Below, in pieces: positions 42,410 through 50,484 of a stretch of DNA of 50,818 bases. The notes below the pieces were generated by a model, which was given only the letters and a program-made list of their open reading frames with translations, did no database searches and was not told the origin of the DNA. The stretch is from an uncultured Clostridia bacterium (GTDB lineage Bacteria; Bacillota; Clostridia; Oscillospirales; Acutalibacteraceae): NCBI GenBank assembly GCA_945982035.1, contig CAMFRO010000002.1, positions 1 to 50,818 of the forward strand, written 5' to 3'. Each line of letters opens with the position of its first letter. The first letter of the stretch is position 1. Both the position numbers and the translations under genes were made by a program.

Positions 42410-43288
42410 TTATTCTATATTTTGAATCTGCTCACGGATTTTTTCAACCTCGGCTTTGATGTCAACTACCTTGCGTGCAATTTCAACATCATTTGCCTTG
42501 GAGCCTATGGTATTTGTTTCACGGTTAATTTCCTGTACGAGAAAATCCATTTTTCTGCCCACAGGCTCGTCGGAATTAATAAAATCATTAAGCTGGGCAA
42601 TATGTGAGCGCAGCCTAACAGTTTCTTCAGCAACTGCTACCTTGTCGGCAAAGACCGCAACCTCCTGAATAATTCTGCTCTCGTCAAGAGTAACGTCGCC
42701 GATAAGGTCGTGTACACGCTCAATCAGTTTATCATTATATTCCTTAACAGTTTGGGGTGAACGCTCCTCAATAAAGGATACACATTCAAGAATATAATTT
42801 GACCTTGATGCAATATCAGCTTTCATATTAGCACCTTCAACCGTGCGCATTTGAATGAATTTGTCAACAGCCTCGGAGGTAACGGTGCGAACATAATTCC
42901 AAATTTTCTCCTCGTCCTCCTCCTCTTTTTTGACAACGAGAACATCGGGAAAACGGCTTATTGCAGAAACGCCGAAATCCTCTTTAAGCTCGTAATCGCA
43001 GGCAAGCTGTTTAAGTGCCTTTACATAAGCGCCGGCAAGAGTTTTGTTAACAACAACCTGAGCAGAATCGGTATCAAGCGCCTCAATAGTAACAAAGCAC
43101 TCAACCTTGCCCCTTGATACTCGTGAATTAATATAGGATTTAAGCTTGTCATCAAGAAATCCGTACTGTCTGGGAATACGTGAATTAAATTCAAAATATT
43201 TGTGATTGACAGACTTAATTTCAACAGTGATAACATAACCGTCTATTTCTTTTACGCTTCTTCCGAAGCCTGTCATTGACTTGAGCAT
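42410..43288 (-). CDS. YicC family endoribonuclease-like protein
   Basis: MLKSMTGFGRS..., EIKSVNHKYFEFNSRIPR. Confidence 0.94.
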   Translation of the reverse strand: MLKSMTGFGRSVKEIDGYVITVEIKSVNHKYFEFNSRIPRQYGFLDDKLKSYINSRVSRGKVECFVTIEALDTDSAQVVVNKTLAGAYVKALKQLACDYELKEDFGVSAISRFPDVLVVKKEEEDEEKIWNYVRTVTSEAVDKFIQMRTVEGANMKADIASRSNYILECVSFIEERSPQTVKEYNDKLIERVHDLIGDVTLDESRIIQEVAVFADKVAVAEETVRLRSHIAQLNDFINSDEPVGRKMDFLVQEINRETNTIGSKANDVEIARKVVDIKAEVEKIREQIQNIE

Positions 43289-43317
43289 AAGCAACTCCTT
43301 AAATTTTATTAAAAAAT

Positions 43318-43346
43318 ATTATAGTAAGTAACAATAGTAAGGTCAA
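43318..43346 (-). promoter_or_regulatory. Sigma-A promoter for the yicC-remA-gmk-... operon (TTGACC-N17-TATAAT)
   Basis: Near-consensus hexamers with 17-bp spacer, upstream of yicC. Confidence 0.8.
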
Positions 43347-43396: not shown

Positions 43397-43428
43397 ATAA
43401 AAAACAAGGACGGAGAACTCCGTCCTTG
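43397..43428 (-). terminator. Terminator after the 45-aa ORF
   Basis: CAAGGACGGAG-aa-CTCCGTCCTTG followed on minus strand by TTTTTT. Confidence 0.9.
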
Positions 43429-43441
43429 CTGACAATTTGAT

Positions 43442-43579
43442 TTAGAATTCACCAAAGGGATCTATCTCTTCACCGCCCCCTTCAATACCGCCTTCAACAT
43501 TACTTGATTCGGTCATTACGGTGTCAATTCTAAATTTTTCAATCTCCGCCTCGGGAGAAATATATTTTTTCTTTGCCAT
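43442..43579 (-). CDS. 45-aa small protein of unknown function (absent from the ORF track)
   Basis: MAKKKYISPEAEIEKFRIDTVMTESSNVEGGIEGGGEEIDPFGEF; SD GGGAGGA; lies between the giant secreted gene and its terminator. Confidence 0.75.
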   Translation of the reverse strand: MAKKKYISPEAEIEKFRIDTVMTESSNVEGGIEGGGEEIDPFGEF

Positions 43580-43596
43580 GATTTAATTCCTCCCTG

Positions 43597-46500
43597 TTAG
43601 TTGTTGCAGATGTTACCGTAGTCAATTGACTGAACTACTGTGTTTTGGTCAAAGCTTGTGTCTGTATCGGCAACGGTGGGGTTGTAGCTGTACTTAACAT
43701 AAGCACGAGTGTAAACCTTTGTTCCGTCAGTAGGTACTTTAGCAAATCTAAGGTAATACTGACATGTTTCGGTTGCATCCTTGTTGGATACAAATCTAAC
43801 ATTTTCGCCGCCTATTACAAACTTATTGGGATCGGTACCAACCGTTGAATCGGTTGTGTAAAGAGTACCCTTTTCAGTAACAACGCCGCAAACGCCGGTG
43901 GTTTGATTTATGCCTGATGCATATTGAGTATATTGAGTATAAATCGTGTACTTCTCGCTTGTTTGTAATACACTTGAAACGTAAGGAAGTTTAGCGTCAA
44001 GCTTTCTAATCATTTCTGAGTCGGTAACGGTTGTACCGTTAATTGTATATGTGCCTGTTGTGGTATCCTTAGATACTGAATACAATGCCATATCGCCGAC
44101 TGTGAAGAACGGATACGAAGTATCGGTACGTGAATTATACTTAACAATTGAGTAAGTGCCGTCAGCATTGAGAAGTGCAATTGCATAGGAACCTGTCTTG
44201 CCAACAGCAGTTGCCTTTGTATCGTAGTACAACGGCTGTGATGTTGAAGAAAGAACGCTTGTGCCGTCTATGGAAACATTATATGTGGTTCCTGCCTTTT
44301 CATACTTAGGCTTAAGAACTACAAGACCGTTCTCATCCTTGTAATCGGACATAGTGTAGGTTCCGTCATTTACAGATGTGCCGTTAATGCTCCAGCCGCT
44401 CTGAGTGTAATACGGATAGTCATCTGCAGGAACAGATGTTGAACCGATTACGCAGGTATTTTTACCTAACTGAACTGATGTACTTTCGTCAACATTATAT
44501 TCCTGTACGGTGTTACCGTAGATGTTGAGAACTCTTACCTTAACCTGACCGGTTACAGGCTCTGATGAGCAGTAAGCGGAAACAGTAGTGGTGCCATCCT
44601 GCTGAATGCTGAGGTTATAGCTGTCGGCTGCAGGAATTGTTTGCGATGTGCCATCGCTGTAAGAAACAATCCACTTGTAATTATTAAGGCCGGCGGGAAC
44701 ATTAAATGTTACCGTTTCTCCATAAATGTGAGAAGTTGTTTCTGTTGAATATACAGTATTTTCATCATCGTTATAAACGTTGAATGTAACTGTGCAGCTT
44801 CTTCTGTTAGCCGACGTACTGTCCTCAAGTGCTGAAAGCACGTTAGTGGTAACAGCGTCAAGCTGAGTCTGCTGATTTGCAGAGGTGTTGTACCAAATTG
44901 TACCGCCAACATTTACATAAGCCGTGCAATCCTCGGATGAAACATCTGTATAAGCAGGTGTTGTAACAGTCTGTTTAGCGGCAGAGCCTACGCCGTTTTG
45001 ATAAGCAACAACGGCACTGTTAAGTCCCTGCTTCTGTACAGTTTTGTAAACCGAGCTGTCAGATGCAAGATAAGCGTCTGAAAATGCACCTACATCATAG
45101 TACTTAAGAAGATTTGTTGCAGAATCATAAGCGTCATAATCTGCGCACTCTGCAAGATTGCCCTTTTGTACGCCAACATTCTGTCCGTCGCTTATAATTG
45201 CAGTCTGGCGTGCAGATTGGGTAGAAGTATCAACTGCTGAAGCATAGTATCTGTGTCCGTTAAGCTTTACATATACTCCGTTGATAAGAACGTAATCACC
45301 ATCTTCAAATTCTGTCGGATTTGCATCACCATCGTTCATATAGAACACGCCTATATAGGTGTAATGGTCAATATTTTTCGCCTGCTTATCAGTAGTGACG
45401 ATATTGCCGTCTTTATCGTATGCAATATACGGACCGTATGCGTTATTAACATAAGTTACTTTGTACTTTTCAGTATCGTTCTTATAATCGGTTGACTTAT
45501 CTGCCCAAGCCTTTGCAGTATTATATGCGTTTGTGAAATTCAGCCAAGTTTTGTAAGAATAATTTTGGTTAAGGTACGAGGTACCATTGCCGACAACCAG
45601 CGTTGCAGTGTTATCAGATGTGGATGCAACAGCGTTCTCCGGCTCTGAATAATCAGCCTTTTCAACAAGAACTGCCTGTGCGGCGGTTACATTGCTTTGA
45701 AGTCTTGAAATAGTAGCTTTATCGGTAATGAAAGCATTATCTTCGCCGAATGGGTTAAGAGAATCTACATGCTCTTCAATCTTGTTATATGCGTTTTTGT
45801 AAGCAGTCCAAGAAGAATTTGTGTAAACTGCGTCTGTTGCTGTGTATGTTCCGTCGCCGTTGTCAATAGTAACGTTACCGTAGGAATCGTCAGTACCGGC
45901 GGCAGCTTCATAGAAGCCTGTGTTAGCGTCAACTACATCGTAAAGGGTTTTGTAGTCAGCCTTTTTCTCTATCTTAGTAAGGTCAACCGCCTCAAGAGCG
46001 TCAACCTTAGTCTTAAGGGTTCTTGCAAGTTCTGAAGCGTCGGCTGTTGCAGTTAAGGCATAGGACTGTGATGTAAGAGCATCATAGGCTTCAAGCAATT
46101 CCTTAGCAGATTCCGGAGTGTAGTCGGCTATATTTCCAAGAATCTCTCTTCTTTTGCTATCCATCAATACAGACTTAACTGTTGAGTAGTTAATTACTGT
46201 TACTGTACCACGACCAGAAGCCCATCCGGGAACAGATTTCGAACAGTCTCTATAACCACTTTTTACTGCTTTCCAACGCTTATAAGCATGGAATGTAGGG
46301 GTAAAGGAATAAATATAGCTGTAAATAGAACCATCAGAAGTTGTATAGGTAGTATCACTTGCTGTATTAACCTTAAAGGTGTCAAGATTACCTGTAAAAC
46401 GTGCATAACCGGAAGCATTATAGAAAGTTTTTGCCGACATATCAGCAGCGAAGGTATCTTTTGCATTAGTCATTCTGTATTTTTCCTGATAATTATCATA

Positions 46501-49500
46501 ATACCAGTTAACATTACTATCTTTACCTGAACCATCAGTATTACTTGTGTTTTGGTGCCAATATTCATCATCCTTTGTTCCTATACCGGCACCACCAAAC
46601 GCCATAGGCACGTTATTATAAACAAATATTGCTGCACCGTACTGATTTGTAGTACTTGAATTTTGCTTATAAAAACGAGATGAGAAAGGAGCTATTGGAG
46701 TATCACCATCAATACCGGTATAAAGCCAAACATACTCAGAAGATGAAAGTGCCGCAGAAGCATTGTCATAAGCACCGTTATCTTGTTCTATACATTTATA
46801 CACTTCGGTTGGTTGAGTAAGCATATTATGAGTAAACTTTTCAGGTATATCATTCTTACCGGACTGTGTATAACCCTTAACAGTATCAGTGGGCTTAGTG
46901 TACTTAACCATCAATTCGATAGAATTCTCAAGTTCATTATAGAGTTGAAGAATTTCATCCGGGTTTTCCTGTACAGTACCATGCTTACAAGCCTCAATAT
47001 AACGGCGGATTCTGTCGTAAGCCTTATAAGCAGCACTCATATTAGTGTAAACAAACTCTGATTTTCCCACATCAGCCATAGCTTTTTCAAAGTCGCCTAA
47101 AGCCTTTGGTAAAAGAGTATTCGCTATGTCACGACAGTCAAGATTGTACAGACTCTTTGCAGAATACAATGCGTTATAAATTTTAAAATTGTCTAAGTAA
47201 GCATCAGTAGCATTTACCCAATATCCGCAAGAGTTACCATAGAACACGCCGCGGTCCGAGTTGAAATAGTCGTGAATTGAATGACCGGATGTTTTAGCAT
47301 TTGCTGAAACATAATAGTCAATTTTTTTAGTAAGCTTTCCGTCTATATAGAAATAGATATTGTCCCAGCTACCGTGCGGCTCTATTTGAATTTCAATATG
47401 TGACCACTTATTAAGCGGAAGACCGTTTGTGCCGAATACGCCTGTGGCGTTGATATAGTTGTCACCGGCAGCGTCTGCATCCCAAACATAATGTAATTCA
47501 CCATTTTCAAGGACTTCAAAAAATCTTCGCGAGCCCCCATTAGTGTGGTCTTCACCGATATTAAAAATAGTCTCGCCGTTAATAGCTGCACCCGGATTAT
47601 ACCACATAGAAATTGTATAACCCTTTGACTTATCAGTGGTTGAGCCGTAGTAGGTATATTTGGAATTAACGCCGTTTGCGGCATTAAGAACCTTTCCGTT
47701 AATACCAAGTGGGTCGTCAACGGTTGTAGCGTAAGCAGTTTTATCATTATTTCCGTCGCCGGTGGTGTCTTTATCTTCCATGGGGTCATAGTAAACTGCG
47801 GAAGCATTTACATCATCGGCTACGTTTGTACCCGGAGTAGCATTCGCCAATTCCTCAATAGACTCGTCAACATCATAGTAAGAAAGCGCTCTGTTGTAAA
47901 TACGGAAGTCGGAAATGTAACCGTTAAGCATATCATCAGCTGCATAAGAGGAAATACCGAAATAAAGATTACCTGCTATCAAATTATCAAAGAATGCTTG
48001 GTTCATAGCCGTATTATTGATAGGACAACCTACCGTTTTGATGCTTTCGCCGTTTTTAGCGTAAACATATTTAAGCAATGCACCGTCAACGCAGAATGTA
48101 ACATAGCCCTTTGAAATAGTATATGTGTAAAGATGCCATGCGCCCTTATATGAGGTACCCTTGTAACCGTCTGCAATAGTCTGTGTGCCTATGTTATTTG
48201 CACCAAACTCCATATTAGCCGCCGCATAAACGTAGGAGGTATTTAATTGTGAATATCCTCTGCCAAGCTCGTCATCCCAGGAAACATTACCTGGATCGGA
48301 CATACTTGACCAGTCAAAGAAACGACCGTAGTTAGCGTTAGTTGCATAACCGTACCAAGAGAAGGTTATTCCGTCGTCAATGTTAAGTCCTCTTAGCATA
48401 CTTGAGGTATTGATGCTTGCATAAGCACCATTTTTATTACCTGAATCGTTAACGGTTGATGCAGCGGCAGATGCAGTTCTGTCCGAAGCCGTACCTGCAA
48501 AGTTAGCGGCAACCTTACCGTTATAATTATTTGTCATTGTAACGCCGGAATTGGTAAGAGTATTTCCATTGCCTGTTGCGTCATAGGTAGCGTCGTCATT
48601 AGTAAAGTAACGTGCTACAAGATAATCGTTAGCAGTTTTGCCGGATTCAATACCTGTTGAATCGTATGTTGTTTTACCGTATTTGGCAATAAGCTTATTA
48701 TACTCTGCCGTGGTAATATTAATAACTGAGCCGTGACGAGGTGTTAAATAGTTTAAATTCATAGAGTCAACTCTTGAACTCTCAAAATTCATTAAATCCG
48801 AAGATGAATACACTGCAAAGTATGAAAGAGAGCTTGAATAGTGGTCAGCCATCATCATATATGCACCTGTATTGTAAAGTCTGTAAACCTCGGGACCTTC
48901 AAGAGAAGAACCATAGTTACCATCTGTAAATGAAACAGGAGTTGAATAAGGACCGCTTGCATGTGTGGAGGTTGAATAAGCAATTTTCTTGGTTGTTTCA
49001 TCCTTAAACCACATATAATAAATATTTCCGTCAAAAGTAATGTTACCGTCTATATTATCATTACCTGTATCAATTAACTGTTTAGGTTTTGTAAGGAAGG
49101 TCTTGAAGTCATCAGTATAGGTGTAATACATAACTGTATGACCGCCAATATAACCAACTGCCCAAAATAGCATATAGTGACCTGCCTCTTCATCCCAAAT
49201 AGCCTCGGGAGCCCAAGCACGTGATACCGAACCGCCGCAGAGGTCACCCATAATTGACTGGGTATCAATAAACCATGGTTCTGTATCCGCAAGCTCTTCC
49301 ATACTATTAAGATGCCATACCATAAGCTTTGAGTTATTACCCCAGTTGGTACCGTTCTCTGTATTTAAGTCGGTAGCGAGAATGTAGTATGAGCCATCTT
49401 GTGCCTGGAACGCATAGGGGTCACGAACATGTCCGGATGCGGCAATACCGGAATTATCTGGATAAGAGGTAATTGTTGAAGGCAGATTGTTAGCAGCACT

Positions 49501-50484
49501 CCAAATAGGCATATTACCGTTAAGAGCCTCCCAGTTGTAGCCGTCGTCCGATACAGCCATGTGAAGTGTTTCGCCGTCTGCACTGTTACCTGTAAAGTAA
49601 GTAAACAGATATTTATCCTTAGTAGTATCTACGTCCTTGGTAGTATCTTCATATTGACCGGAGTAGAGCTTGATGCTCTTATATGAAACATTTTGGTAAT
49701 AAGCACCATTCGAGGTACCGAGATAAAGTCCGGTAATATTTGACGTATCAAGAGTATATCTGCAAGAGCCGTAATTTATTATTATTTCGCCGGAATCATC
49801 GGTAACATAAGATACAAAATGGCCCTTTTCATAATACATAATATAATGATAATCAGTACTTTTAGCCAAATTGTTGGTATCAAGCCTATAAGTACCGCCC
49901 TCATGTGAGGTAGCAGGCGATTTTGTTGAACCGTCAATATGCGTTCTACCATAACCGTCCTGTGCAAAGAACTCGTTATACCATGGATATTCACTATAAA
50001 AATCATTTACATATCCACTTTTTGTTGAAATCTTGAAAAAGGTTGACTTATCCAAGCTTGCGATAGAAAAATCACCGTAAAATTGAAATTCAACATCAAC
50101 TTTAAAGGAGCTTAATCCCTTAAGCGGATTGACATTGCCGTTATATGCAGAAACATACATATAACCGTTGCTGATATGTGTACCTGTTGAATCAACAGTA
50201 GGTGTAAGCGCATTATAACCATCACCAGGTTTATACCATTCAGCTGCCTTCCAGCCGATTTGATGATCAGCAGAATCAACAGAAGCGACAGCAGTATCCT
50301 CATAAATATTTACACCGTCGTCTGTATTAGTTACACTGGAATCAGACCATTGTGCATTAGTAAAATCAGATGATGCAAACTGAGTCCAGCTTGTTTGACC
50401 GGCATACGAGGTTAGCGGCATAGCTGACGTAGCCATAACCAGTGACAAAACTACACAGACAAGTCTTGAAAAATGTTTTTTCAT
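43597..50484 (-). CDS. Giant secreted multidomain GH43-family glycoside hydrolase (GH43, two LamG-like, FIVAR-like, bacterial-repeat regions)
   Basis: Signal peptide; GH43 acids in HVRDPYAF, NIDGNITF, SLEGPEVY; LamG-like segments ending NGYISDFRIYNRALS and DAYLDNFKIYNALYS. Confidence 0.88.
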   Translation of the reverse strand: MKKHFSRLVCVVLSLVMATSAMPLTSYAGQTSWTQFASSDFTNAQWSDSSVTNTDDGVNIYEDTAVASVDSADHQIGWKAAEWYKPGDGYNALTPTVDSTGTHISNGYMYVSAYNGNVNPLKGLSSFKVDVEFQFYGDFSIASLDKSTFFKISTKSGYVNDFYSEYPWYNEFFAQDGYGRTHIDGSTKSPATSHEGGTYRLDTNNLAKSTDYHYIMYYEKGHFVSYVTDDSGEIIINYGSCRYTLDTSNITGLYLGTSNGAYYQNVSYKSIKLYSGQYEDTTKDVDTTKDKYLFTYFTGNSADGETLHMAVSDDGYNWEALNGNMPIWSAANNLPSTITSYPDNSGIAASGHVRDPYAFQAQDGSYYILATDLNTENGTNWGNNSKLMVWHLNSMEELADTEPWFIDTQSIMGDLCGGSVSRAWAPEAIWDEEAGHYMLFWAVGYIGGHTVMYYTYTDDFKTFLTKPKQLIDTGNDNIDGNITFDGNIYYMWFKDETTKKIAYSTSTHASGPYSTPVSFTDGNYGSSLEGPEVYRLYNTGAYMMMADHYSSSLSYFAVYSSSDLMNFESSRVDSMNLNYLTPRHGSVINITTAEYNKLIAKYGKTTYDSTGIESGKTANDYLVARYFTNDDATYDATGNGNTLTNSGVTMTNNYNGKVAANFAGTASDRTASAAASTVNDSGNKNGAYASINTSSMLRGLNIDDGITFSWYGYATNANYGRFFDWSSMSDPGNVSWDDELGRGYSQLNTSYVYAAANMEFGANNIGTQTIADGYKGTSYKGAWHLYTYTISKGYVTFCVDGALLKYVYAKNGESIKTVGCPINNTAMNQAFFDNLIAGNLYFGISSYAADDMLNGYISDFRIYNRALSYYDVDESIEELANATPGTNVADDVNASAVYYDPMEDKDTTGDGNNDKTAYATTVDDPLGINGKVLNAANGVNSKYTYYGSTTDKSKGYTISMWYNPGAAINGETIFNIGEDHTNGGSRRFFEVLENGELHYVWDADAAGDNYINATGVFGTNGLPLNKWSHIEIQIEPHGSWDNIYFYIDGKLTKKIDYYVSANAKTSGHSIHDYFNSDRGVFYGNSCGYWVNATDAYLDNFKIYNALYSAKSLYNLDCRDIANTLLPKALGDFEKAMADVGKSEFVYTNMSAAYKAYDRIRRYIEACKHGTVQENPDEILQLYNELENSIELMVKYTKPTDTVKGYTQSGKNDIPEKFTHNMLTQPTEVYKCIEQDNGAYDNASAALSSSEYVWLYTGIDGDTPIAPFSSRFYKQNSSTTNQYGAAIFVYNNVPMAFGGAGIGTKDDEYWHQNTSNTDGSGKDSNVNWYYDNYQEKYRMTNAKDTFAADMSAKTFYNASGYARFTGNLDTFKVNTASDTTYTTSDGSIYSYIYSFTPTFHAYKRWKAVKSGYRDCSKSVPGWASGRGTVTVINYSTVKSVLMDSKRREILGNIADYTPESAKELLEAYDALTSQSYALTATADASELARTLKTKVDALEAVDLTKIEKKADYKTLYDVVDANTGFYEAAAGTDDSYGNVTIDNGDGTYTATDAVYTNSSWTAYKNAYNKIEEHVDSLNPFGEDNAFITDKATISRLQSNVTAAQAVLVEKADYSEPENAVASTSDNTATLVVGNGTSYLNQNYSYKTWLNFTNAYNTAKAWADKSTDYKNDTEKYKVTYVNNAYGPYIAYDKDGNIVTTDKQAKNIDHYTYIGVFYMNDGDANPTEFEDGDYVLINGVYVKLNGHRYYASAVDTSTQSARQTAIISDGQNVGVQKGNLAECADYDAYDSATNLLKYYDVGAFSDAYLASDSSVYKTVQKQGLNSAVVAYQNGVGSAAKQTVTTPAYTDVSSEDCTAYVNVGGTIWYNTSANQQTQLDAVTTNVLSALEDSTSANRRSCTVTFNVYNDDENTVYSTETTSHIYGETVTFNVPAGLNNYKWIVSYSDGTSQTIPAADSYNLSIQQDGTTTVSAYCSSEPVTGQVKVRVLNIYGNTVQEYNVDESTSVQLGKNTCVIGSTSVPADDYPYYTQSGWSINGTSVNDGTYTMSDYKDENGLVVLKPKYEKAGTTYNVSIDGTSVLSSTSQPLYYDTKATAVGKTGSYAIALLNADGTYSIVKYNSRTDTSYPFFTVGDMALYSVSKDTTTGTYTINGTTVTDSEMIRKLDAKLPYVSSVLQTSEKYTIYTQYTQYASGINQTTGVCGVVTEKGTLYTTDSTVGTDPNKFVIGGENVRFVSNKDATETCQYYLRFAKVPTDGTKVYTRAYVKYSYNPTVADTDTSFDQNTVVQSIDYGNICNN

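Follow-up and report, generated by a model that had tools for sequence, protein, structure and literature searches.

A 45-residue peptide encoded behind a giant secreted protein is a predicted precursor of an LPP-like RiPP system in Clostridia

The window, i.e. the whole 50,818-nt stretch of DNA that was analyzed, belongs to an uncultured Clostridia bacterium represented by a 1.58-Mb MAG (G000) that is 88.6% complete. Its minus strand carries a gene for a giant secreted protein, followed by a 45-aa open reading frame (ORF) and a terminator. In the direction of transcription, the features are:

43597..50484, minus strand: 2295-aa secreted partner protein with signal peptide MKKHFSRLVCVVLSLVMATSAMPLTSYA (ORF and domain searches)
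about 48688-49617, minus strand: GH43-like region of the partner (NCBIfam arabinofuranosidase model, below cut-off)
about 47158-47646, minus strand: LamG_3 of the partner (domain search)
43600..43989, minus strand: C-terminal ~130-aa beta-sandwich domain of the partner (...VYTRAYVKYSY...VQSIDYGNICNN), kept in the partners of other copies
43580..43596, minus strand: 17-nt gap with the Shine-Dalgarno sequence GGGAGG at 43594-43589 (sequence)
43442..43579, minus strand: predicted 45-aa LPP-like RiPP precursor MAKKKYISPEAEIEKFRIDTVMTESSNVEGGIEGGGEEIDPFGEF (ORF reading and family profile)
43403..43430, minus strand: intrinsic terminator with a 12-bp stem, a 4-nt loop and the tail TTTTATGCCT (terminator scan)

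The 17 nt between the stop codon of the giant gene and the start of the peptide gene contain, on the minus strand, aGGGAGGaattaaatc-ATG, in which GGGAGG lies nine bases 5′ of the ATG at 43579. Because this gap is too short for a separate promoter, transcription would be shared with the giant gene. The next feature after the peptide ORF is the T-rich-tailed terminator, which was the strongest in the 5.5 kb scanned. We ruled out a readthrough or in-frame fusion that would extend the giant protein into the peptide, since the two frames differ when the codon grid is compared with the ATG at 43579. Just past the terminator, a near-consensus promoter (TTGACC-17-TATAAT, 11/12; 43318-43346, minus strand) is located upstream of a gene at 42410-43294, which by eye appears to encode a YicC-like protein (MLKSMTGFGR). 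This YicC-like gene is probably a separate transcription unit and, considering that it has its own −10/−35-like site, the giant gene and the peptide gene would form a closed two-gene unit. The original prediction, which gave no strand, had proposed that a 45-aa ORF with a good Shine-Dalgarno sequence, a 17-nt spacing and a strong terminator had been overlooked, and in all of these points it was correct, down to the peptide sequence it quoted. Its GH43 label for the giant protein could be kept only in part: residues 290-599 match the NCBIfam arabinofuranosidase model, but at 85 bits against a cut-off of 500. The LamG_3 match covers residues 947-1109.

When used alone as a query, the peptide had no match in Pfam, NCBIfam, PHROGs or the PDB. 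A search with a profile built on genus members detected the family in 70 of the 80 congeneric genomes, at 1-13 copies each, in 61 of 300 genomes of the taxonomic family, spanning 33 of its 135 genera, and in 35 of 391 genomes sampled across the class. Between related copies (20 pairs), substitutions at codon positions 1, 2 and 3 numbered 117, 67 and 296, respectively. This excess at third positions argues that the ORF is translated and constrained; on the evidence of these substitutions it is under purifying selection, and the codon-position bias ruled out a tail-ORF or translation-only artefact. About 47 of the 57 unique genus copies start within 70 nt (2-65 nt; median, about 18 nt) of the end of a larger ORF on the same strand, which is usually 700-3600 aa long, and a secreted-looking protein likewise ends ~20 nt ahead of several copies from distant families of the class. 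The two-gene layout, from which co-transcription had been proposed at a single locus, and the link to secreted proteins hold genus-wide and beyond. A few copies (at L059, L064 and L070) have no obvious partner protein. At L059 (3977-4253), tandem peptide genes with no large secreted gene upstream are directly followed by a gene for a membrane protein of ~249 aa, and this locus may be a variant that has no partner. Very many copies were observed in single genomes of different families (15 in G391, 11 in G587, and 13 each in G076 and G078), and at G052:C3:30279-42498 (L032, L044) two divergent giant secreted genes each end in their own, differing peptide gene.

Alignment of the copies revealed a conserved leader, YxxPExEIEKF...DVITxS, and a variable, acidic core of Gly, Asp and Glu with an aromatic or aliphatic end. 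Among 107 unique copies, the Tyr was found in 94%, Pro at Y+3 in 96% and Phe or Tyr at Y+10 in 93%, the YxxP frequencies being partly conditioned because the seed alignment was chosen using the Y..P pattern. Thr at Y+17 and Ser at Y+19 were each present in 64% of the copies, and a hydrophobic-hydrophobic-T/S-x(0-2)-S junction was present in 99 of the 107. Mean pairwise identity was 0.45 in the first 11 positions (Y to Y+10), compared to 0.13 in the core. The cores have a median net charge of −5, no Cys and almost no Lys or Arg, and in 93% at least one of the last three positions is aromatic or aliphatic. The Y-x-x-P start that had been noticed as leader-like thus belongs to a leader motif that hardly varies, the T/S junction corresponds to the conserved DV(I/V)TxS element, and most cores take the form of an acidic tail with an aromatic end. 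RiPP precursors are built in this way, with a conserved leader ahead of a variable core. By analogy with LppA (PMC13381572), the leader of the window peptide is predicted to comprise about residues 1-23 (Y6, P9, F16, V21-M22-T23) and the core about residues 24-45 (ESSNVEGGIEGGGEEIDPFGEF; pI about 4.05), with S25/S26 as candidate phosphoacceptors.

No maturation-enzyme gene was noticed within the 50-kb window. The original prediction had likewise seen no maturase, RRE or peptidase gene; genes of these kinds do occur, but at other sites in the genomes. Elsewhere in the taxonomic family, in genera other than that of the window, the peptide gene, often as a tandem pair, is located between a secreted protein and a series of enzyme genes: HprK-like kinase, ABC exporter, PqqD-type RRE, S26 signal-peptidase-like protease and PF14907 nucleotidyltransferase (NTase). 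We scanned 84,980 species genomes with the HprK-like protein and obtained 80 loci, 44 of which had enough flank. These 44 loci contained PqqD (33), S26 (24), the ABC exporter (21), the NTase (13) and a same-strand family peptide nearby (13). Directly ahead of HprK-PqqD-S26-ABC-NTase is also where the peptide gene is found in other Clostridia, among them Acetivibrio alkalicellulosi and Herbivorax. Hosts of the kinase loci include Acetivibrio alkalicellulosi DSM 17461 (L160), Herbivorax sp. ANBcel31 (L185) and Clostridiales VE202-01 (L181). The neighbors of homologues, whose tabulation had been suggested as a check for linkage either to secreted proteins or to peptide-maturation genes, include both. 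In the Acetivibrio and Herbivorax loci, the peptide and the cassette are separated by a gene for an SLH-like protein that is secreted and ends in an acidic tail rich in Asp and Glu; this protein could be a surface scaffold for the system.

The window's genome encodes an HprK-like kinase, alone on contig C3 (G000:C3:18102-18809; E = 1e-86), in which the P-loop SGTGKSTHT and NDDKP are intact. It also contains two PqqD RRE genes above the Pfam cut-off, on contigs C74 and C76, and a PF14907-like NTase gene directly behind the PqqD gene on C74. At L095 1889-3137 (G000:C76), the second PqqD gene adjoins a DPM1/GtrB-like family-2 glycosyltransferase gene, with no other RiPP gene close by; in a congener (L107), it is conserved beside serine-dehydratase-like genes. 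The S26 protease was not found in the window's own genome, the 88.6%-complete MAG. It is encoded in 65 of the 80 genus genomes, with the conserved Ser of GxSM and the His of HR, and adjoins an ABC transporter in the genus loci inspected.

To relate the peptide to these enzymes, we compared their distributions. PqqD was detected in 70 of the 80 genus genomes, and the ten genomes without it (G005, G010, G026, G030, G036, G037, G042, G074, G075 and G079) are exactly the ten without the peptide. The same ten also lack the HprK-like kinase, S26 and the C-terminal domain of the partner proteins, which are absent from 17, 15 and 12 of the 80 genomes, respectively. The probability of an exact match between PqqD and the peptide by chance is 6e-13 if genomes are independent, a calculation in which related genomes count as independent; a few clade-level losses could lie behind the ten negative genomes. 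Across the taxonomic family (135 genera), PqqD was present in 60 of 61 peptide-positive genomes compared to 171 of 300 genomes overall (hypergeometric probability with kinship ignored, 3e-16).

The partners are diverse large secreted proteins that differ in size and domain content. The proposed link to a secreted enzyme holds as regards secretion, but the family is not specific to GH43 enzymes. All 29 complete partners longer than 700 aa have a signal-like N-terminus by a crude test, and a simple pattern scan of these 29 revealed no LPxTG, C-terminal membrane anchor, SLH or dockerin. The last ~100-130 residues of the partners form a common domain (...QYxxxI...VYxRAYVKYxY...YGN...) with no convincing Pfam match. 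The AlphaFold2 model of this domain is a beta-sandwich (pLDDT 82, pTM 0.78), for which a PDB fold search returned weak Ig-like matches (best E, 0.05); the model would assign it to no narrower class than 'Ig-like beta-sandwich'. A profile of the domain matched 68 of the 80 genus genomes, and 14 of the 20 strong domain matches without a listed peptide showed, on reading, a peptide directly downstream. One partner subfamily has its own conserved core type (...DLHDDDEYDYFG). The Acetivibrio and Herbivorax proteins adjoining the complete cassette have a C-terminus of the same kind, and in distant families the partner domain differs. In the partner subfamily comprising L218-L229 and L022, the peptide core is almost fixed (DPxxDxDLHDDDEYDYFG), and several of these copies lie beside prephenate-dehydrogenase-type aromatic amino acid genes or within head-to-tail arrays of secreted-protein genes.

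Per-genome counts of the partner domain and of the peptide correlate among positive genomes (Spearman 0.63). Together with the position of almost every copy directly downstream of a long secreted-protein gene, this correlation would also be expected if the peptide were an intracellular accessory of the giant protein, such as a chaperone, a secretion pilot or a translation/mRNA-3′-end factor, whose YxxP likeness is convergent. The data lend no support to the chaperone-like or signalling partner that the original prediction offered as an alternative. We consider an accessory role unlikely, as it predicts neither the exact co-absence with PqqD, HprK and S26, nor the location beside HprK-PqqD-S26-ABC cassettes in other genera, nor a conserved leader with a variable core; moreover, the partners already possess Sec signal peptides (29/29 by the crude test). 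It is also rather improbable that the peptide, although recognized by the RRE, acts with the kinase and NTase in signalling or immunity unrelated to its neighbor, its site behind secreted genes serving as a convenient strong operon. The differences among partners in size and domains, the other C-terminal domain in distant families and the few copies without an obvious partner are consistent with this reading. Against it stand the genomes with up to 13 copies, most with their own secreted partner, the core type particular to one partner subfamily, and the loss of the partner domain from the same ten genomes.

The reading that we prefer, an RRE-dependent RiPP precursor, finds its closest counterpart in the LPP RiPPs, linear polyphosphorylated peptides specified by lppAKBSDN (Popov et al. 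2026, Nat Commun 17:6633; PMC13381572). There, the RRE protein LppB binds the YxxP leader via N33 and D70, which hold P-13 and Y-16; the HprK-like LppK places several phosphates on core Ser3; the SpI-like LppS, helped by LppB, removes the leader by a cut behind T-1; LppD acts as an MsbA-like exporter, and no effect of LppN was visible (PMC13381572). The LPP and Clostridial systems have five maturation genes in common (HprK-like kinase, discrete RRE and NTP transferase, which the window's genome also encodes, and an archaeal-type signal-peptidase-like protease and MsbA-like exporter, which were seen in its relatives), as well as a YxxP leader, a conserved N-terminus with a variable C-terminus, a Ser 15-16 residues past the leader Pro and the absence of a B2 protease from the core set. 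By contrast, the LPP leader is YxxPxVLxHQxIxFETxxS whereas that of the present family is YxxPExEIEKFx3DV(I/V)TxS, and the published LPP pattern Px9Fx[T/A] was matched by none of 51 genus seed peptides and none of 22 cassette peptides (0/73), which have Px6F instead. Published work on LPPs centers on Bacilli, where the clusters often lie in capsule loci (PMC13381572), whereas the present family extends across Clostridia, has many precursors scattered over each genome with partly dispersed enzymes in trans, and is associated with large secreted proteins. As the Clostridial gene set is the same but the precursor motif differs, we propose that the peptide functions in the manner of an LPP precursor, without classing it as a strict LPP.

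We also aligned both RREs of the window's genome to PDB 9x8z and 9x90, which we read, from residue numbering and molecule names, as LppB and PbaB1. At the positions that align with LppB N33 and D70, the Tyr-selecting residues, both RREs have Asn and Asp, where paeninodin RREs have Gly and Gln; because Asn/Asp are common also in other lasso and PQQ RREs, they exclude paeninodin-type selection and do not prove an LPP. That the peptide is a lasso precursor is very improbable and was rejected on the protease family PF13471, which gave a single, weak match in 80 genus genomes and none in the window's genome, unlike paeninodin-type clusters with their B2 protease; neither a B2 nor a cyclase gene stood out among the genes listed for the cassettes, and the cores show no evident conservation of a ring-forming Gly1...Asp/Glu7-9 spacing, even though rumen Ruminococcus lasso leaders are similar (MTYNKPSFEKISSFKESTM; PMC7533575), paeninodin clusters contain PqqD, HprK-like and NTase genes (PMC13381572), and the exporter type and a [Y/W]xxP leader are likewise in common. 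Resemblance to SynChlorMet is slight: the HprK-like protein is weakly like ScmC (TIGR04249) and one PqqD weakly like ScmD (TIGR04248), but the matches are far below the equivalog cut-offs, and no radical-SAM partner was noticed.

Taken together, we propose, with a probability of about 0.7, that the 45-aa ORF encodes the precursor of an RRE-dependent, LPP-like RiPP system whose maturation enzymes are encoded in trans. The data support a translated and constrained gene, a shared-transcript architecture, an enzyme set in trans, co-occurrence of peptide and enzymes, and coupling to secreted proteins and their C-terminal domain. The RiPP character first suggested for the peptide thereby gains strong genomic support, with RRE and kinase genes identified in the window's genome and protease and exporter genes in its relatives, while its chemistry is drawn by analogy; this chemistry and the final function of the peptide we infer. 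In such a system, the giant secreted protein and the peptide would be made from one mRNA. As in the Lpp system, the leader KKKYxxPExEIEKF would add a beta-strand to the PqqD-type RRE via Y6 and P9, and the HprK-like kinase would phosphorylate the serine just past the DVxTxS junction (S25/S26 here). The signal-peptidase-like serine protease would then cut off the leader near T23, the paired ABC transporter would export the acidic core, and the PF14907 NTase may decorate the phosphate. Copy numbers speak against this scheme, as there are 1-13 peptides but 1-3 enzymes per genome, and it assumes that every copy is processed in trans.

The role of LPPs and their paeninodin relatives has been stated as unknown (PMC13381572). 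For the present family, we conjecture that the mature phosphopeptide acts extracellularly in concert with the secreted protein expressed alongside it, most likely to keep these enzymes at the cell surface or organize them there via their conserved C-terminal domain. A more tentative and rather doubtful extension is a two-part surface system, in which LPP-like peptides, phosphorylated or decorated in another way, are exported and anchored (e.g. to a glycopolymer via the NTase) and the beta-sandwich of each partner docks onto its own peptide. If so, it would constitute RiPP-based anchoring or tagging of extracellular Clostridia enzymes, replacing LPxTG, SLH or dockerin signals.

The enzyme kit has been known since 2026, whereas three features appear to be unreported: the dispersal of many precursors over each genome, the leader type seen in Clostridia, and the coupling to large secreted proteins and their C-terminal domain; the open-licence PMC literature yielded one LPP paper (PMC13381572) and no account of such coupling. 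RiPP mining that starts from enzyme clusters would overlook many of these precursors, as their genes are located elsewhere. Their connection, gene by gene, to identifiable extracellular proteins with a common C-terminal domain provides a concrete, testable partner. If the peptides anchor or organize giant glycan-active proteins, this would explain how many of the gut Clostridia display enzymes that carry no known surface signal.
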